Assembly: GCF_026341515.1 (NCBI RefSeq)
Contig: NZ_JAPEOK010000001.1
Location: 4,030,001 to 4,094,000, forward strand
DNA: 64,000 nt
Source: Streptomyces sp. NBC_00878
GTDB taxonomy: Bacteria; Actinomycetota; Actinomycetes; Streptomycetales; Streptomycetaceae
Reading direction: 5' to 3'
Positions 39,359 to 45,951 of this stretch are shown here, in pieces. Under the pieces are notes generated by a model. The model had not been told where the DNA came from. It searched no databases and was given only the letters and a program-made list of their open reading frames with translations. Made by a program: the position numbers and the translations under genes. Numbering within the stretch: the stretch's first letter is position 1; each line of letters opens with the position of its first letter.

Positions 39359-39394
39359 GGGCCGTGTTTCACCCTGCCGAGGGTGACACGGCCC
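39359..39394 (+). terminator. Terminator after the 38682 membrane-protein gene
   Basis: GGGCCGTGTTTCACCCT pairs with AGGGTGACACGGCCC, with a TT bulge and a GCCG loop. It separates the membrane-protein gene from the FHA/kinase region. Confidence 0.85.
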
Positions 39395-39467
39395 TGCCGC
39401 GTCGTCCTACCCTGATCCCGTACCGCGTACGGGACTTGAAACGGGGAGCGGGACGGGGAGAACGGCC

Positions 39468-40274
39468 TTGTACAGCATCATCGTGGTACCTCCGCCGACC
39501 ACGGAGGACGAACACAGCGACGCGTACGGCGACACGCAAAGCGGTACGCACAGCGGCACGTACGGCGACCGGCGCACCAGCACCCAGCTGCGGCTCGCGC
39601 CCGGAGAGCGACTGGCCTTCGGCCGTTCCGCGGCCGACAACGGACTTGCGATCGCACACGAGGGCGTCTCCCGGAAAGCCGGGGAGATCACCGCGCAGGG
39701 CGCCTTCTGGGTACTGAGCAACCTCTCGGCCCACCAGACGTACGTGGTGGAGAACCCGGAGGGCGCGGGCGAGCACATCAAGGTCGGACCGGGCAGGCTG
39801 GACGCGCCGGTCCCCTTCGAGTTCTCCCGGATCGTGCTCCCGGCGGCGGGCGACCTGCTGCACATCGAGGTGTGGGCACCCCGTCACGACTATCTGCGCT
39901 CCCCGGAGGGCATGGACGGGGCGACGACCGCGCCCGCGTTCTCCGTCGACCGCACCAAGCGGTACTTCGCGGTCCTGGCCGCCCTCTGCGAGCCCCGGCT
40001 GCGCGGCGAACCGCACGCCCCGCTGCCCACGGTCGACCAGGTCGTGGCGCGGCTGCGCCCCAACTGGCCTGCCGCGGCCCGCACTTCGGTCCAGTGGAAC
40101 ATCGACTACCTCGCCGTGAAACTGCGTCTCAAGCCGGGCCCCGACACGGCGGACACCGGCCCGCGCCTCAACGGCAAGAAGGAGTCCCTGGTCTCCCTGG
40201 CCCTGCGCTTCGATCTCGTACGGGAGGACGACCTGCTCGTCCTGACGGAGCCGGCGAGCCGGACGGCCCGGTGA
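39468..40274 (+). CDS. FHA-like/winged-helix protein, module 1
   Basis: 268 residues, TTG start supported by GGGGAG seven bases upstream and by the matching start of the paralogue at 42000 (MYSVIVVPP). The N-terminal half is FHA-like: LAFGRSAADNG with the Gly-Arg, then AHEGVSRKAGEITAQGAFWV and LSNLS. The usual His of the SxxH motif is missing. The C-terminal half (about 160-262: TKRYFAVLAALCEPRLRG, SVQWNIDYLAVKLRLKPG, LVSLALRFDLVREDDLLVL) looks like a winged-helix DNA-binding or effector domain. The stop overlaps the kinase gene (GTGA). I infer a phospho-dependent transcription factor, the substrate or reader of the kinase encoded next. Confidence 0.8.
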   Translation: MYSIIVVPPPTTEDEHSDAYGDTQSGTHSGTYGDRRTSTQLRLAPGERLAFGRSAADNGLAIAHEGVSRKAGEITAQGAFWVLSNLSAHQTYVVENPEGAGEHIKVGPGRLDAPVPFEFSRIVLPAAGDLLHIEVWAPRHDYLRSPEGMDGATTAPAFSVDRTKRYFAVLAALCEPRLRGEPHAPLPTVDQVVARLRPNWPAAARTSVQWNIDYLAVKLRLKPGPDTADTGPRLNGKKESLVSLALRFDLVREDDLLVLTEPASRTAR

Positions 40275-41839
40275 CCGGGGCGTACGCGGTCACGGTGCCC
40301 AAGGGGTACCGGGTGGGGTCCTGGGAGGTGCGGGAGCCGATCGCCACCGGCGCGTTCGGCAGCGTGTACGAGGCCCGGTCCACCGGCGCCGACGAGGACC
40401 TGCCGAAGTCGGCCGCGCTGAAGTTCCTGCCCACCGGCACCGGTACGCCCCGTCAGCTGACGCATCTGCGTGAACTCGCCGAGCGCGAGATCGAGTTGCA
40501 CCGCAGGCTCAGGCGCCCGCGGCTCATCCGGATGTACGAGACCCTCACCGTCGACGACCCCGGCCGCCCCGGCCTCGACGGCGCCACCGTCCTCGTACTG
40601 GAGCGCGCGGAGGGCTCGCTCGCCGCGCTGCTTGCCCGCTCCCCGCGTCCGCCGCACGGCCCCGCGCTGCTCGCGCAGATCTGCGAGGGCCTGGCGCAGC
40701 TGCACCGAGCGGGCTGGGTGCACGGCGACCTCAAGCCCGCCAACGTGCTGCTGATGAAGGACGGTTCGGCCCGGCTCGCCGACTTCAACATGGCCGCCGA
40801 ACTGGAGGGCACCCACGCCTACACCGCCGCCTTCGCCACCCCCGACTACACCCCGCCCGAACTCCTCTGGGCCGAGATCGGCGAACGCGGCCGCCAGATC
40901 AGGCCCTCGGCCGACGTCTGGGCCTTCGGCGTCCTCGCCCACCTCGTGCTCACCGACACGTTCCCGCTGCCGGGCGGCACCCCTACAACCCGCCGGGACG
41001 CGGCGGTCCGCTACGCACGCGGCACCGATGAGCTCCGGCTGTCCCCCCAACTCCCGGACGCCTGGCGGGAGATCGTACGGAACTGTCTGGCCCGTACGCA
41101 CACGGAACGGATCTCCGGCGAGACGCTGCTGCGACAGGTGGAGGCGGCGGCCGGCACCGGCCGGTCCCCCCGTCCGCCGAGGCTGCGCGCGTGGCGCGGA
41201 CGCCGCCCGAGGCTCGTCCTGGCCGCCGCGGCGGCCACGGTCGCCGTCTCGGCGCTCGCGTACGGCATCACCGCCTGGGCGGGCGACAGCGCGGACGGCA
41301 CGGAGGAGGGCGGGGGCCGCGCTCCCGCGACCGAGAAGGTCGTCCAGGCCTCCTACGGCGACGGCGAACTCCGTACCGGCAAGGGCGTACCGGCCGTCTA
41401 CCGGCCGCTGATCGTGGACTCCGCGCACGAGTGTGTGCAGGAGGACGTCACGCCCGCACTCCTCGCCGCCATGCTGAAGGTGGAGAGCGATTTCGACCCC
41501 GATCTGTCCGATCCCGCCGCGAACGAGTACGGAATCGCCCGCTGGACCCCGCGCGTGCTGCGCTGGTGGATCCGGTCCGACGGCACCACCCCCAAGGCCA
41601 TCCCCGAGCCCCCGTTCTCGCCCGCCGAGTCCATTCCGGCCATGAGCCGCTACCTGTGCTGGATCGCGCCCCGTATCGACGCCAAGCTCACCGGCGACCA
41701 CCGGGTGCTGATCGCGGCCGCCTACCGGACGTCGTTCGAGAAGGTGAACGACGCGGCCGGCGTTCCCCCGAAGTACCACGACTACGCCGCCCGCGTCGCT
41801 CACTACCTCAAGGAATACACGCCTCCGGGGAAGAAGTGA
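40271..41839 (+). CDS. Membrane Ser/Thr kinase with extracellular lytic-transglycosylase-like domain
   Basis: 522 residues, GTG start overlapping the upstream stop. The Hanks-type kinase domain has glycine loop ATGAFGSVYEA (25-35), ATP Lys51 in AALKFLP, the catalytic loop HGDLKPANVLL (Asp153, Asn158) instead of HRD, DFN (171-173) instead of DFG, and TPDYTPPELLW as APE-like motif. The key Lys/Asp/Asn/Asp are present, so activity is likely. One TM (about 314-336) leads to an outside lysozyme/SLT-like domain: TPALLAAMLKVESDFDPDLS with the expected catalytic Glu405, NEYGIARWTPRVLRWW, and a C-terminal AYRTSFEKVNDAAG. A kinase tethered to a muralytic-type domain suggests direct reading of peptidoglycan. 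Confidence 0.88.
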   Translation: MTGAYAVTVPKGYRVGSWEVREPIATGAFGSVYEARSTGADEDLPKSAALKFLPTGTGTPRQLTHLRELAEREIELHRRLRRPRLIRMYETLTVDDPGRPGLDGATVLVLERAEGSLAALLARSPRPPHGPALLAQICEGLAQLHRAGWVHGDLKPANVLLMKDGSARLADFNMAAELEGTHAYTAAFATPDYTPPELLWAEIGERGRQIRPSADVWAFGVLAHLVLTDTFPLPGGTPTTRRDAAVRYARGTDELRLSPQLPDAWREIVRNCLARTHTERISGETLLRQVEAAAGTGRSPRPPRLRAWRGRRPRLVLAAAAATVAVSALAYGITAWAGDSADGTEEGGGRAPATEKVVQASYGDGELRTGKGVPAVYRPLIVDSAHECVQEDVTPALLAAMLKVESDFDPDLSDPAANEYGIARWTPRVLRWWIRSDGTTPKAIPEPPFSPAESIPAMSRYLCWIAPRIDAKLTGDHRVLIAAAYRTSFEKVNDAAGVPPKYHDYAARVAHYLKEYTPPGKK

Positions 41840-41999
41840 CCCTGAGACTTCCGAGGTACCGCTCAGGGCTCTTCCCTGGGGCGACTGGTGGGTCGTGCCG
41901 CTATGACTTGCCTCCGGTAACTCCCGATAGCCTGGCCGACCCCCCTGACTCCCTTTAGCCTGGCCATCGTTGGGGGCAGGGGTAAGGGGAGACGACTCC

Positions 42000-42740
42000 A
42001 TGTACAGCGTCATCGTGGTACCGCCGGGGGGCACTGGATCAGGCGACCAGATCCATCTCTCGGCGGGCGAGAAGCTCGTCTTCGGCAGGTCCGCGCGGGA
42101 GGGCGGTCTGACGATCGCCCACGAAGGAGTGTCCAGGGTCGCCGGTGAGATCACCGCGCACCGGGCCTTCTGGATCCTGAGCAACCTCAGCCAGGACCAG
42201 ACGTACGTGGTGGAGAACCCGGAGGGCGCGGGCGAGCACATCAAGGTCGCGCCGGGCCGCCTGGACGCGCCCGTGTCGTTCGAGTTCTCGCGCGTGGTGC
42301 TGCCCGCGGCGGGTGAGCTGCTCAGCTTCGACGTGTGGGCGCCGCGCCACACGTACAGCCGTACGGCTCATCCCGGGGTCTCCGGCGCCACCACGGCCGC
42401 GGCGTTCTCGCTCGACCGCACCAAGCGGTACTTCGCGGTGCTGGCCGCCCTGTGCGAGCCCCGGTTACGGGGCGAACCGCACGCCCCGCTCGCCACGAGC
42501 GACCAGCTCGTGGAGCGGCTGCGGCCCTCCTGGCCCGCGGCGAGCCGCTCGTCCGTGTACTGGAACATCGACTACCTGGCGGTCAAACTGCGCCTGAGAC
42601 CCGGCCCTGACACGGCGGAACCCGGCCCGCGCCTCTACGGCAAGAAGGAGTCACTGGTCTCGCTCGCGCTCCGCTTCGACCTCGTACGGGAGGACGATCT
42701 CGTCGTCCTGGCGCCGGCCCCGCGGGAGGCGGAGCAGTGA
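42000..42740 (+). CDS. FHA-like/winged-helix protein, module 2
   Basis: 246 residues, paralogue of the 39468 protein with the same layout: FHA-like half (LVFGRSAREGG, AHEGVSRVAGEITAHRAFWI, LSNLSQDQTYVVEN) and winged-helix-like half (TKRYFAVLAALCEPRLRG, SVYWNIDYLAVKLRLRPG, KKESLVSLALRFDLVREDD). It lacks the spacer with DTQSGTHSGTYGD found in module 1. The start is ATG 42000, with GGGGAG upstream. A 54-bp block (42196-42249) is identical in DNA to 39733-39786. Coupled to the kinase gene by a 4-base GTGA overlap. The 160-base gap to module 1 carries TAGCCTGGCC twice (41928 and 41957), perhaps part of its own promoter. Confidence 0.8.
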   Translation: MYSVIVVPPGGTGSGDQIHLSAGEKLVFGRSAREGGLTIAHEGVSRVAGEITAHRAFWILSNLSQDQTYVVENPEGAGEHIKVAPGRLDAPVSFEFSRVVLPAAGELLSFDVWAPRHTYSRTAHPGVSGATTAAAFSLDRTKRYFAVLAALCEPRLRGEPHAPLATSDQLVERLRPSWPAASRSSVYWNIDYLAVKLRLRPGPDTAEPGPRLYGKKESLVSLALRFDLVREDDLVVLAPAPREAEQ

Positions 42741-44296
42741 GTGGCGCGGCGAGCGACGCACCGAACGGACGTTCCTACGCCGTCTCCGTTCCGAAGGGCT
42801 ACCGGGTGGGCCCCTGGGAGGTGCGCGAGCCGATCGCGTCCGGCGCGTTCGGCAGCGTGTACGCGGCCCGGCGGGCCGGGGGCGGGGGCGGGGACAGAGG
42901 TGGGGCAGGTGACGGGGATGTGGCCGGAGCGCGGACCACGCAACAGGCCGGGAAGGGGGCCGGGAAAAGGTCCCGAAAGGGGGCCGGGGAACGGGCCGGG
43001 AAGGGAGCCGGTGACGGGGCCGCCGAGAAGACCGTCGCCGTCGGCGGTTCCGCCGTCGTGGGCTCCGCCGTCGCCGACGGCGGAACCGGCCCGCTGCCCC
43101 GGCACGCCGCGCTGAAGTTCCTGCCGACCGGTACCCGCACCCCGCGCCAGCTGCACCACCTGCGTGAACTGGCCGACCGTGAACAGGAGTTGCTGAAGCG
43201 GCTGCGCTCACCACGCCTGATCCGGATGTACGAGGCGCTGACGGTCGACGACCCGGAGCACCCCGAACTCGACGGCGCCACCGTCCTCGTACTGGAACGG
43301 GCGGAAGGCTCGATGGACGCGCTCCTCGACCGGTCCGCCACCCCGGGATCCGGGCCCGCCCTGCTGGCCCAGGTCTGCGAGGGCCTGCACCAGCTGCACC
43401 ACGCCGGCTGGGTGCACGGCGACCTCAAACCCGCCAACATCCTGCTGATGAAGGACGGTTCGGCGCGTCTCGGCGACTTCAACCTGGCGGCGGAACTGGA
43501 GGGCACCCACGCCTACTCCCCCGCATTCTCCACCCCCGACTACACACCACCGGAACTCCTCTGGGCCGAGATCGGCGTACGCGGCCAGCAGATCCGCCCG
43601 ACCGCCGACATCTGGGCCTTCGGTGTACTGGCCCACCTGGTCCTGACGGGCTCCCTGCCCCTGCCGGGCGCCACGGCCGAGGCCCGCCGCGACGCGGTGG
43701 TGCGGTACGCGCGGGGGACCGACGAGCTCCGTCTGTCCCCCGAACTCCCGCCGGACTGGCGGGAGATCATCACCGACTGCCTGGCCCCTACGCACGCGGA
43801 GCGCGCCCCGTACGACGCGGCCTCGCTGCTGCGCCGGGTGGAGCAGGTCGCGGGGACGGCCCGTTCGGCCCGCCTGCCGAGGCTGCGGCCCCGCCGGTGG
43901 CGCCGCCCCGTCCTGGCGGCCGCGGTCGCGGTGGCGGTGCTGAGCGCGGCGACGGTGACGGTGACGTACGCCCTGCGGGACTCGGACACGGTGGTCGCCG
44001 CGCCGCCCACCTGCGAGAAGCCCGCGGTGTACGAGGACAGCACCTACGGCCGCGGCTATACCGCGGGTTGGAGCGGCACGTGGGACTTCGCCATCAAGCA
44101 GGGCGAGGGTGGCAGCCAGGTCAGAGAGCTCCAGTGCCTGCTCAAGCACCTTCACGGCTTCACCGGAATCGGAGTGGACGGCGAATTCGGCCCGCTGACC
44201 GACGCGGCCGTCGTGGCCTTCCAGAAGCGGGAGGGCCTGTCGGCGGACGGAGAGGTGGGCCCGAACACGTGGCGCGCCCTGCGTACCAGGGACTGA
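42737..44296 (+). CDS. Membrane Ser/Thr kinase with extracellular peptidoglycan-binding domain
   Basis: 519 residues, GTG start. The kinase domain matches module 1: ASGAFGSVYAA, Lys127 in AALKFLP, HGDLKPANILL (Asp229), DFN (247-249), TPDYTPPELLW. Between the glycine loop and Lys127 lies a roughly 75-residue Gly/Ala/Lys insertion (GKGAGKRSRKGAGERAGKGA) absent from module 1. After one TM helix (PVLAAAVAVAVLSAATVTVT) the outside part has two Cys and a PG_binding_1 domain (REIQ-like SQVRELQCLLKHLHG, VDGEFGPLTDAAVVAFQKRE, GLSADGEVGPNTWRAL). The sensor is therefore exchanged relative to the first kinase while everything inside the cell is kept. Confidence 0.88.
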   Translation: MSGAASDAPNGRSYAVSVPKGYRVGPWEVREPIASGAFGSVYAARRAGGGGGDRGGAGDGDVAGARTTQQAGKGAGKRSRKGAGERAGKGAGDGAAEKTVAVGGSAVVGSAVADGGTGPLPRHAALKFLPTGTRTPRQLHHLRELADREQELLKRLRSPRLIRMYEALTVDDPEHPELDGATVLVLERAEGSMDALLDRSATPGSGPALLAQVCEGLHQLHHAGWVHGDLKPANILLMKDGSARLGDFNLAAELEGTHAYSPAFSTPDYTPPELLWAEIGVRGQQIRPTADIWAFGVLAHLVLTGSLPLPGATAEARRDAVVRYARGTDELRLSPELPPDWREIITDCLAPTHAERAPYDAASLLRRVEQVAGTARSARLPRLRPRRWRRPVLAAAVAVAVLSAATVTVTYALRDSDTVVAAPPTCEKPAVYEDSTYGRGYTAGWSGTWDFAIKQGEGGSQVRELQCLLKHLHGFTGIGVDGEFGPLTDAAVVAFQKREGLSADGEVGPNTWRALRTRD

Positions 44297-44415: not shown

Positions 44416-45351
44416 ATGGGGCGAGCACTCGCATTCGCTTCCGGGTGCCTGGCCGCGGTGATCGTGACGTTCACCGCGGCCGGCTGCACCACGAGCGCCG
44501 AAGCCGGTTCCCAGAGGAAGGGCCAGAGCGAGAGCAAGAGCCGGGGTCAGGCACGGGAGCTGACCGACGCCGAGCAGGTCCTGCTCCAGCGCGCGGAAGC
44601 ACTGCTGGTCAAGAAGTGCATGGAGGCGGAGGGCTTCAAGTACTGGCTGGGGTGGCTGCCCACCGTCGACGACCTCAAGGGCGGCGGCTACGTGCTCACC
44701 GACGTCGGCTGGGCGAAGAAGCACGGCTACGGCAGTCGGCTCAAGGACAAGCTCCAGGACGTCCAACGCGACGATCCGAACTCCGCGTACGCCAACGCGC
44801 TCCCGAAGGAAGAGCGCGTCCGCTACAGCAAGACGCTCGAAGGCGGCCCCTCCAGCGGCATGCTGACCGCCGAACTGCCCGCCGGCGGCACCGTCCAGAC
44901 CCCCCGCGACAGCTGCCAGGCCGATGCCAAGGGCCGGCTCTACGGAAACTTCGAGACCTGGTTCCGGGCCGAGAAGACGGCCACGAACCTGTCCGCCCTG
45001 TACGTGCCGGACCTCATCAAGGACAAACGCTTCGTGAACGCGGTCAAGGACTGGTCGGCGTGTATGCGCGAGGCGGGCCACGACTACGCCGATCCACCAG
45101 AGATTCGCGAGCGGTTGTCGAAGGTCACCAAGGGGCTGAGCACCGAGAAGGCGTTCGCCGCCGAGGTGGACCTGGCGGTCGCCGAGGCCACCTGCGCAAC
45201 CGAAACACCTCTGGCCGACACGGCACGCACACTGCAGACCGAGTACCGCGACAAGAAGCTCCAGCGGTACGGCGACGACATCGCCACCTATCAGCGCATG
45301 CGGCTCGACGCGCTGGCCCGGGCCGAGGACATCACCGGCTCGACGGCCTGA
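44416..45351 (+). CDS. Secreted lipoprotein of unknown function
   Basis: 311 residues with a lipoprotein signal peptide (MGRALAFASGCLAAVIVTFT, lipobox TAAGC). The mature part is mainly helical and charged with six or so Cys: LLVKKCMEAEGFKYWLGWLP, PRDSCQADAKGRLYGNFE, KDWSACMREAGHDYADPPEI and VAEATCATETPLADTARTLQ. The C(M/x)R/K-AG-(F/H)-x-Y pattern repeats twice, as in a family of streptomycete secreted proteins I cannot name. The start is ATG 44416; GTG 44404 is possible. It follows the kinase modules by 119 bases and could be an envelope partner of them (inference). Confidence 0.8.
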   Translation: MGRALAFASGCLAAVIVTFTAAGCTTSAEAGSQRKGQSESKSRGQARELTDAEQVLLQRAEALLVKKCMEAEGFKYWLGWLPTVDDLKGGGYVLTDVGWAKKHGYGSRLKDKLQDVQRDDPNSAYANALPKEERVRYSKTLEGGPSSGMLTAELPAGGTVQTPRDSCQADAKGRLYGNFETWFRAEKTATNLSALYVPDLIKDKRFVNAVKDWSACMREAGHDYADPPEIRERLSKVTKGLSTEKAFAAEVDLAVAEATCATETPLADTARTLQTEYRDKKLQRYGDDIATYQRMRLDALARAEDITGSTA

Positions 45352-45492: not shown

Positions 45493-45951
45493 ATGCGTAA
45501 AATCCTGGCCACTGCCGCCACTCTCGGTCTCGCGGGTCTCGGAGTGCTCGTCCCCGTCACCGGCGCCCAGGCCGCCACGCCCTGCGACAACGCATATAGC
45601 AGCGCCTCGTCCGGCTACTTCTACGCCTACGCCAACGACAACTGCAGCGGATACCTCGGCAGTGCCTCGGGCGTGGACTCGAACTGGGGCAACGACCAGG
45701 GCTCGTTCCAGGGCAGTGACACCAACAACGCGGAGTCCATCCTGCACAAGGGCACGTCCGGCCTGGCCGTCCAGGTCTTCAACGGGACGGGCGACGACTG
45801 GGCGGGCGGCCACACCTGCATCAAGAAGACCGAGTTCTACATGAGCAGCCTCAACGGGTTCTCGTTCACCAGCGGTTACGACGTGGACAACGAGATCAGC
45901 TCCCACCGCTGGGTGGCGGAAGGCTCGTGCGGCAAGTTCCTGGACTCCTGA
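45493..45951 (+). CDS. Secreted protein of the peptidase inhibitor I36 (SMPI-like) family
   Basis: 152 residues, signal peptide MRKILATAATLGLAGLGVLV ending AQAA, mature part about 125 residues. Beta-crystallin-like features are seen: YFYAYANDNCSGYLGSASG, SNWGNDQGSFQGSDTNNAES, HTCIKKTEFYMSSLNGFSF and four Cys that can form two disulfides. The I36 family includes the Streptomyces metalloproteinase inhibitor; inhibition here is not shown. Codon use is slightly less GC-rich than its neighbours. A strong AAGGAG site lies just before the ATG, suggesting high expression. A 56-bp perfect palindrome ends the transcript. Confidence 0.85.
   Translation: MRKILATAATLGLAGLGVLVPVTGAQAATPCDNAYSSASSGYFYAYANDNCSGYLGSASGVDSNWGNDQGSFQGSDTNNAESILHKGTSGLAVQVFNGTGDDWAGGHTCIKKTEFYMSSLNGFSFTSGYDVDNEISSHRWVAEGSCGKFLDS

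Follow-up and report, generated by a model that had tools for sequence, protein, structure and literature searches.

Between positions 39468 and 44296 of the window, the whole 64,000 nt stretch of Streptomyces sp. NBC_00878 DNA that was analysed, there are two tandem gene pairs, F1-K1 and F2-K2, arranged head to tail on the + strand (Table 1). In each pair an F gene, encoding a protein with an FHA domain and a C-terminal LuxR-like helix-turn-helix (HTH), is followed by a K gene encoding a membrane Ser/Thr kinase. The stop codon of F and the GTG start of the kinase have the four bases GTGA in common (40271-40274 in the first pair and 42737-42740 in the second). The two F proteins are 75% identical and the two kinases 60% (kinase alignment). 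A preliminary description of this DNA had noted two consecutive pairs of one design joined by GTGA overlaps. That observation is confirmed, and the interpretation that went with it is partly supported.

Table 1. Positions in the window of the F-K genes, their domains and the upstream elements
Feature	Position	Strand	Details
F1: FHA domain and C-terminal LuxR-like HTH, TTG start	39468..40274	+	268 amino acids; 75% identical to F2
K1: membrane Ser/Thr kinase, GTG start overlapping F1 stop	40271..41839	+	522 amino acids; Pkinase 3.4e-36
K1 kinase domain, residues 19-288	40325..41134	+	K51, E73, D153, N158 and D171 invariant in 82 aligned kinases
K1 hydrophobic segment, probable transmembrane helix	41213..41269	+	hydropathy maximum 2.09
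K1 SLT-like ectodomain	41438..41758	+	ES-motif Glu in 58/59 and two Cys in 59/59 of cluster
F2: FHA domain and C-terminal LuxR-like HTH, ATG start	42000..42740	+	246 amino acids; predicted model, fold comparison
F2 FHA beta-sandwich, residues 1-113	42000..42338	+	predicted model and fold comparison
F2 linker, residues 118-141, candidate phosphosite Thr132	42351..42422	+	T in 75/77
F2 HTH region, helices 143-237	42426..42710	+	predicted models and fold comparison
K2: membrane Ser/Thr kinase, GTG start overlapping F2 stop	42737..44296	+	519 amino acids; Pkinase 2.9e-33
K2 hydrophobic segment, probable transmembrane helix	43910..43966	+	hydropathy maximum 2.24
K2 PG_binding_1 ectodomain	44111..44281	+	Pfam match 3e-17
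Inverted repeat GGGCCGTG-N20-CACGGCCC upstream of F1	39359..39394	.	exact arms at 48/51 SLT-type F genes
TACCCT, -10-like hexamer, 13 nt past inverted repeat	39408..39413	+	equal spacing in 43/48

We classed 132 F copies at 99 loci (the window, 20 further loci and 78 from genome contigs), a set chosen by similarity to F in which Streptomyces is therefore over-represented. A kinase gene follows F in 124 of the 132 copies, with the 4-base overlap in 119 (the kinase start being GTG in 74, ATG in 42, TTG in two and CTG in one) and another junction in five; one locus tallied as paired, L027, retains a kinase remnant only. The remaining copies are five without a kinase, two that are decayed (L101) and one cut by a contig end. 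The pairing of F and K is far beyond chance, and the search for the two-gene pair across actinobacteria that had been proposed at the outset shows that it recurs in many Streptomyces.

Homologues of F are present in 22 of 41 genomes (its own and 40 relatives), and a close homologue (best E <1e-95) in 14 of the 25 genomes of its own genus, own genome included. There is an F match in 49 of 394 genomes of the class, and three overlapping sets of database matches, not all of them kinase-paired, contain at least 1277, at least 1370 and at least 1081 homologues. Among 20 more distant loci, F is followed by K in L149, L150, L151, L155 (where the kinase lies in two frames) and L156, and in L148, L152 and L153 a kinase is nearby on the opposite strand. 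As few of these loci show F then K, the tight pair is, within this sample, a trait mostly of Streptomyces and its near kin. At one distant actinobacterial locus (L142:2938-5441) the order is reversed, K then F, with one base shared (starts chosen by script). At L143, L144 and L145 there is an F gene with no kinase match nearby and a gene for an AMP-binding enzyme close by, which in L144 overlaps F by 4 bases.

Both K1 and K2 match Pfam Pkinase and are of the Hanks type: the catalytic Lys, Glu, HxD, Asn and DF residues do not vary among the 82 of 115 kinases that were aligned. An HxD search pattern was unmatched in five of the 115; for those five, H and D are invariant in the 82-kinase alignment. 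The DFG motif (residues 171-173 of K1) reads DFN in 93 of the 115 and DFG in 13, and DFN is possibly a subfamily mark of the K kinases. K2 carries a Gly/Ala/Lys-rich insert of ~70 residues (42875-43096) that separates its glycine loop from the catalytic lysine and is lacking in K1. Pfam finds no PASTA domain in either kinase (E<=1), and no histidine kinase or receiver domain in F1, K1, F2 or K2.

A hydrophobic segment followed by an ectodomain of at least 60 residues is found in 107 of the 115 kinases. By BLAST the ectodomains form four clusters of 59 (including K1), 28 (including K2), 17 and 3 members. Cluster names were taken from a Pfam scan of the 82 kinases (E<=0.01), which gave SLT in 27, PG_binding_1 in 16 and Inhibitor_I36 in 17. 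The PG_binding_1 match of K2 is given in Table 1, and the SLT match of K1 is weak (E 0.0041, 17.1 bits against a cut-off of 21.3). The Inhibitor_I36-type ectodomain may, at a guess, be SH3-like. Because the Glu of the ES motif and two cysteines are conserved in the SLT-like cluster (Table 1), its ectodomain is possibly an active enzyme.

The patristic distances of F and K are closely correlated (r=0.964, 115 pairs), and much of this correlation stems from the species history that the two share. An SLT-type pair has its nearest F relative in another SLT-type pair in 59 of 59 cases. For the PG_binding and I36 types the nearest relative is of equal type in 22 of 28 and 11 of 17 cases, respectively, and this intermixing is expected if ectodomains were swapped on one F-K core. 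Of the 25 loci with several copies, 24 have the SLT type in first place.

At E<=1 neither F1 nor F2 matched any Pfam or NCBIfam family, and F2, as the sole query, gave no match against PDB sequences, so that the original label 'FHA-like' had to be judged by family alignment and structure. In the predicted model of F2 the N-terminal half has the FHA beta-sandwich fold, and its matches in fold comparison include the FHA domains of GarA, OdhI and FhaA. Weak Pfam matches occur among 77 F family members, to FHA in 31 (best 0.00083) and to Yop-YscD_cpl in 39 (best 2.7e-05), with neither in P0003. The phosphothreonine motifs of FHA domains are given as GR, SxxH and NG in the excerpt of PMC1262709. 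GR is present in 76 of the 77 members, with one gap, Asn62 is present in all 77 and the Ser of SxxH (Ser45) is Ser in 62, Pro in 11 and Ala in four. The FHA half is followed by a loose linker in which Thr132 is T in 75 members, S in one and D in one, its direct neighbours being variable; this conservation makes Thr132 a candidate kinase target. In GarA and similar proteins the phosphosites lie outside the FHA core, and Thr132 is reminiscent of these. There is a divergent F paralogue without a kinase at L022:5142-5909, in which GR is gone, as is the SR within the SxxH region. Public records give many F homologues of ~265 amino acids the name 'serine/threonine protein kinase', yet list no Pfam domain for them, and this is likely to be a misnaming.

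The C-terminal half of F had been taken for a winged helix. On the structural evidence we replace this by a LuxR/NarL-like HTH: in fold comparison of the predicted model the first 34 rows are all DNA-binding proteins of the LuxR/NarL type (a fold missing from the rows is not thereby excluded), and the model has the four helices of the GerE fold. The region after the recognition helix, where a wing was looked for, is modelled without strands as a low-confidence loop.

Upstream of 48 of the 51 SLT-type F genes there are exact arms GGGCCGTG...CACGGCCC, and imperfect arms can be seen by eye in the other three. The second arm ends 13 nt ahead of a TANNNT hexamer in 43 of the 48 and 14 nt in two, and the hexamer is absent in three. 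This fixed spacing fits an operator; a terminator is also possible. In the window the repeat folds well as RNA (z -5.19), and no T-run was found after it. Its role may be to terminate the upstream gene, to act as an autoregulatory operator, or to do both. The TTG start assigned to F1 is supported by ACCTTGTA, a string containing it that is kept in 42 of the 51 SLT-type upstream regions. Hairpins after K1 and K2 score no better than shuffled sequence does (z -1.02 and -0.04). In the genome-contig set folD, purH or purN lies near the island in 50 of 56 full-length loci, and a small membrane protein is encoded upstream of F1 in 45 of 56. After K2 there are a lipoprotein-like gene (44416-45351) and a gene for a small secreted protein (45493-45951), both with no Pfam match above cut-off and found in eight and four, respectively, of the 78 loci from genome contigs.

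The folds in the predicted models, the catalytic residues, the pairing, the co-inheritance and the varying ectodomains are supported by computation, and they suggest that each pair is a signalling unit in which an FHA-HTH regulator is driven by its cognate kinase to do a two-component-like job. We put the probability of this reading at roughly 60%. From it we infer sensing of a wall ligand, phosphorylation at the proposed site, binding of F to phosphopeptide and to DNA, and the existence of target genes, in a mechanism that is plausible overall. The kinase ectodomain, SLT-like in K1 and peptidoglycan-binding in K2, would respond to a cell-wall ligand and thereby change kinase activity; the kinase would phosphorylate itself and the co-translated F, probably at Thr132 in the FHA-HTH linker; the FHA domain of F would bind a phosphothreonine, either the kinase's or F's own; and such binding would free or dimerise the C-terminal LuxR/NarL-like HTH for DNA binding. 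The roles of histidine kinase and NarL-type response regulator would thus fall to a Ser/Thr kinase and an FHA-HTH protein. To our knowledge, many bacterial Ser/Thr kinases have no known dedicated output. If true, the proposal would provide a compact route from cell-wall state to transcription via Ser/Thr phosphorylation in which every kinase has a partner of its own, and the island may show Streptomyces gaining sensors by ectodomain change alone. Only tentatively do we extend it to a recurrent Streptomyces class, translationally coupled, in which FHA replaces the receiver and the Ser/Thr kinase the histidine kinase, ectodomains are swapped on the F-K core, and one type has a muramidase-like domain, possibly active, that would do its sensing by the very act of cutting or binding glycan.

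Several observations weigh against the signalling-unit reading, many of them concerning the HTH. Pfam GerE was unmatched in the 77 full F proteins (E<=1) and in eight C-terminal pieces (E<=10), and we therefore call the C-terminus LuxR-like and do not assign it to the LuxR/NarL (GerE) family. By hhalign it scored 57% with MarR_2, 8% with GerE, 4% with Trans_reg_C and 0.35% with Sigma70_r4_2, and the F family scored 0.35% with HTH_36. Since five of six control pairs of HTH families scored 83-98% (the sixth, 0.7%), F is remote by sequence from all the HTH families compared. The MarR_2 score was 54.7% once a distant F group was added; that group alone, effectively one sequence, gave 73.5% with Sigma70_r4_2, 33% with GerE and 11.5% with MarR_2. 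A distant relative, L137, matches HTH_36 at 0.0013, under the family cut-off. The winged helix, favoured by the MarR_2 score and this hint from L137, was set aside for the LuxR/NarL-like HTH on the structure comparison. Two of the five C-terminal models have a pLDDT of 55.6 and 57.1, and the HTH helix is near-invariant between paralogues and genera, which is odd for regulators with differing targets. Finally, a genome search with the inverted repeat gave two sites (four for the backward control) and a scrambled pattern gave four (control, none), so the repeat was rejected as a global operator or regulon motif. The second exact-arm site is at G000:C1:4395089-4395117.

F could instead work chiefly with the kinase, as its FHA adaptor or regulator in the manner of GarA/OdhI or as a scaffold, the HTH-like domain then serving for protein contact and not for DNA. 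The near-invariant helix, the lack of a regulon from the single motif tried (the inverted repeat), the close pairing and the GarA, OdhI and FhaA folds among the structure matches would all fit, but the LuxR/NarL-type rows that head the C-terminal comparison and the existence of F genes without a kinase do not, and we consider an adaptor unlikely.

The remaining objections concern the FHA half and the pairing. The His position of SxxH is Ala in 77 of 77 F members, and the NG motif was not found by eye in the alignment, where positions 66-67 are variable (n=77). The FHA fold stands, as does GR, but reading of phosphothreonine by F is putative. F genes without a kinase are found at L020, L021, L022, L084 and L088, and 11 of the 20 distant loci have no match in the stretch examined to the kinase profile, which is built on near relatives and could miss a remote kinase. 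F might then be a transcription factor in which the FHA-like domain has given up phosphothreonine for another ligand or partner, the kinase sharing the operon or acting elsewhere. The missing His and NG, the Pro at Ser45 in 11 of 77 and the kinase-less F genes agree with this, and the Streptomyces regulator SsaA, on which ligand feedback was reportedly described by Li et al. in 2013, may be an example. FHA-LuxR regulators are also in print with no kinase mentioned in the excerpts (PMC3466318, PMC4572928). On the other side, GR is kept and F is co-inherited with a kinase gene that overlaps it, and we find this explanation doubtful, a little more so than an adaptor. A role of K1 and K2 in a MAD6-like phage-defence system is very improbable and was rejected as generic kinase similarity only: MAD6 gives their best NCBIfam and PADLOC matches, but in NCBIfam these reach 77 and 76 bits where the cut-off is 460 and span part of the profile only, F1 and F2 have no PADLOC match, and the island has the folD/purH/purN setting described above.

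The S. coelicolor counterparts of the island are presumably SCO4816-SCO4821, including SCO4817 and SCO4820. In the excerpt of PMC6629963, sco4820 appears as a low-quality variant only. Among the matches listed from the open-access literature we found no report of a kinase-coupled FHA-HTH pair with varying ectodomains; for the logic there is a precedent in EmbR-PknH of Mycobacterium tuberculosis. According to the excerpts of PMC9239209, PMC4601284 and PMC6213207, EmbR has an OmpR-like DNA-binding domain, then BTAD, then a C-terminal FHA domain, embR precedes pknH in a shared operon, and EmbR requires its FHA domain both to interact with PknH and to be phosphorylated by it. This is the system nearest in logic, with an FHA-containing DNA-binding regulator encoded upstream of a Ser/Thr kinase. 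F differs in having FHA first, a LuxR-like HTH after it and no BTAD match, and the F-K pairs differ in their tandem copies with 4-base overlaps. An excerpt of one of the three sources records a failed attempt to show that EmbR is phosphorylated in M. tuberculosis under normal conditions, which calls for caution with any such model.

The excerpt of PMC4572928 describes the SsaA/SSGG_02995 class of Streptomyces as having an N-terminal FHA and a C-terminal LuxR-type HTH, and reports that SsaA binds five promoter regions. By this description, not by sequence, it is nearest to F in architecture; in contrast with F, SsaA is a regulator within an antibiotic gene cluster, and the excerpt mentions no kinase partner. 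The same domain combination is tabulated for Nocardia farcinica and two Rhodococcus in the excerpt of PMC3466318, whose authors infer a single fusion in the Rhodococcus-Nocardia ancestor and, in that part of the text, mention no kinase coupling. The excerpts of PMC7159879, PMC12419801 and PMC11784345 deal with FHA in other settings. In AfsK-AfsR of Streptomyces, as in the proposal for F-K, a Ser/Thr kinase phosphorylates a transcription factor, but AfsR has SARP-type domains and AfsK has PQQ repeats (excerpt of PMC1262709). K1 and K2 resemble the PASTA kinases (PknB/Stk1) as membrane Ser/Thr kinases with an outward-facing domain and are unlike them in the domain itself. Precedent in print is provided by EmbR-PknH for the logic of the F-K pair and by SsaA for its architecture.
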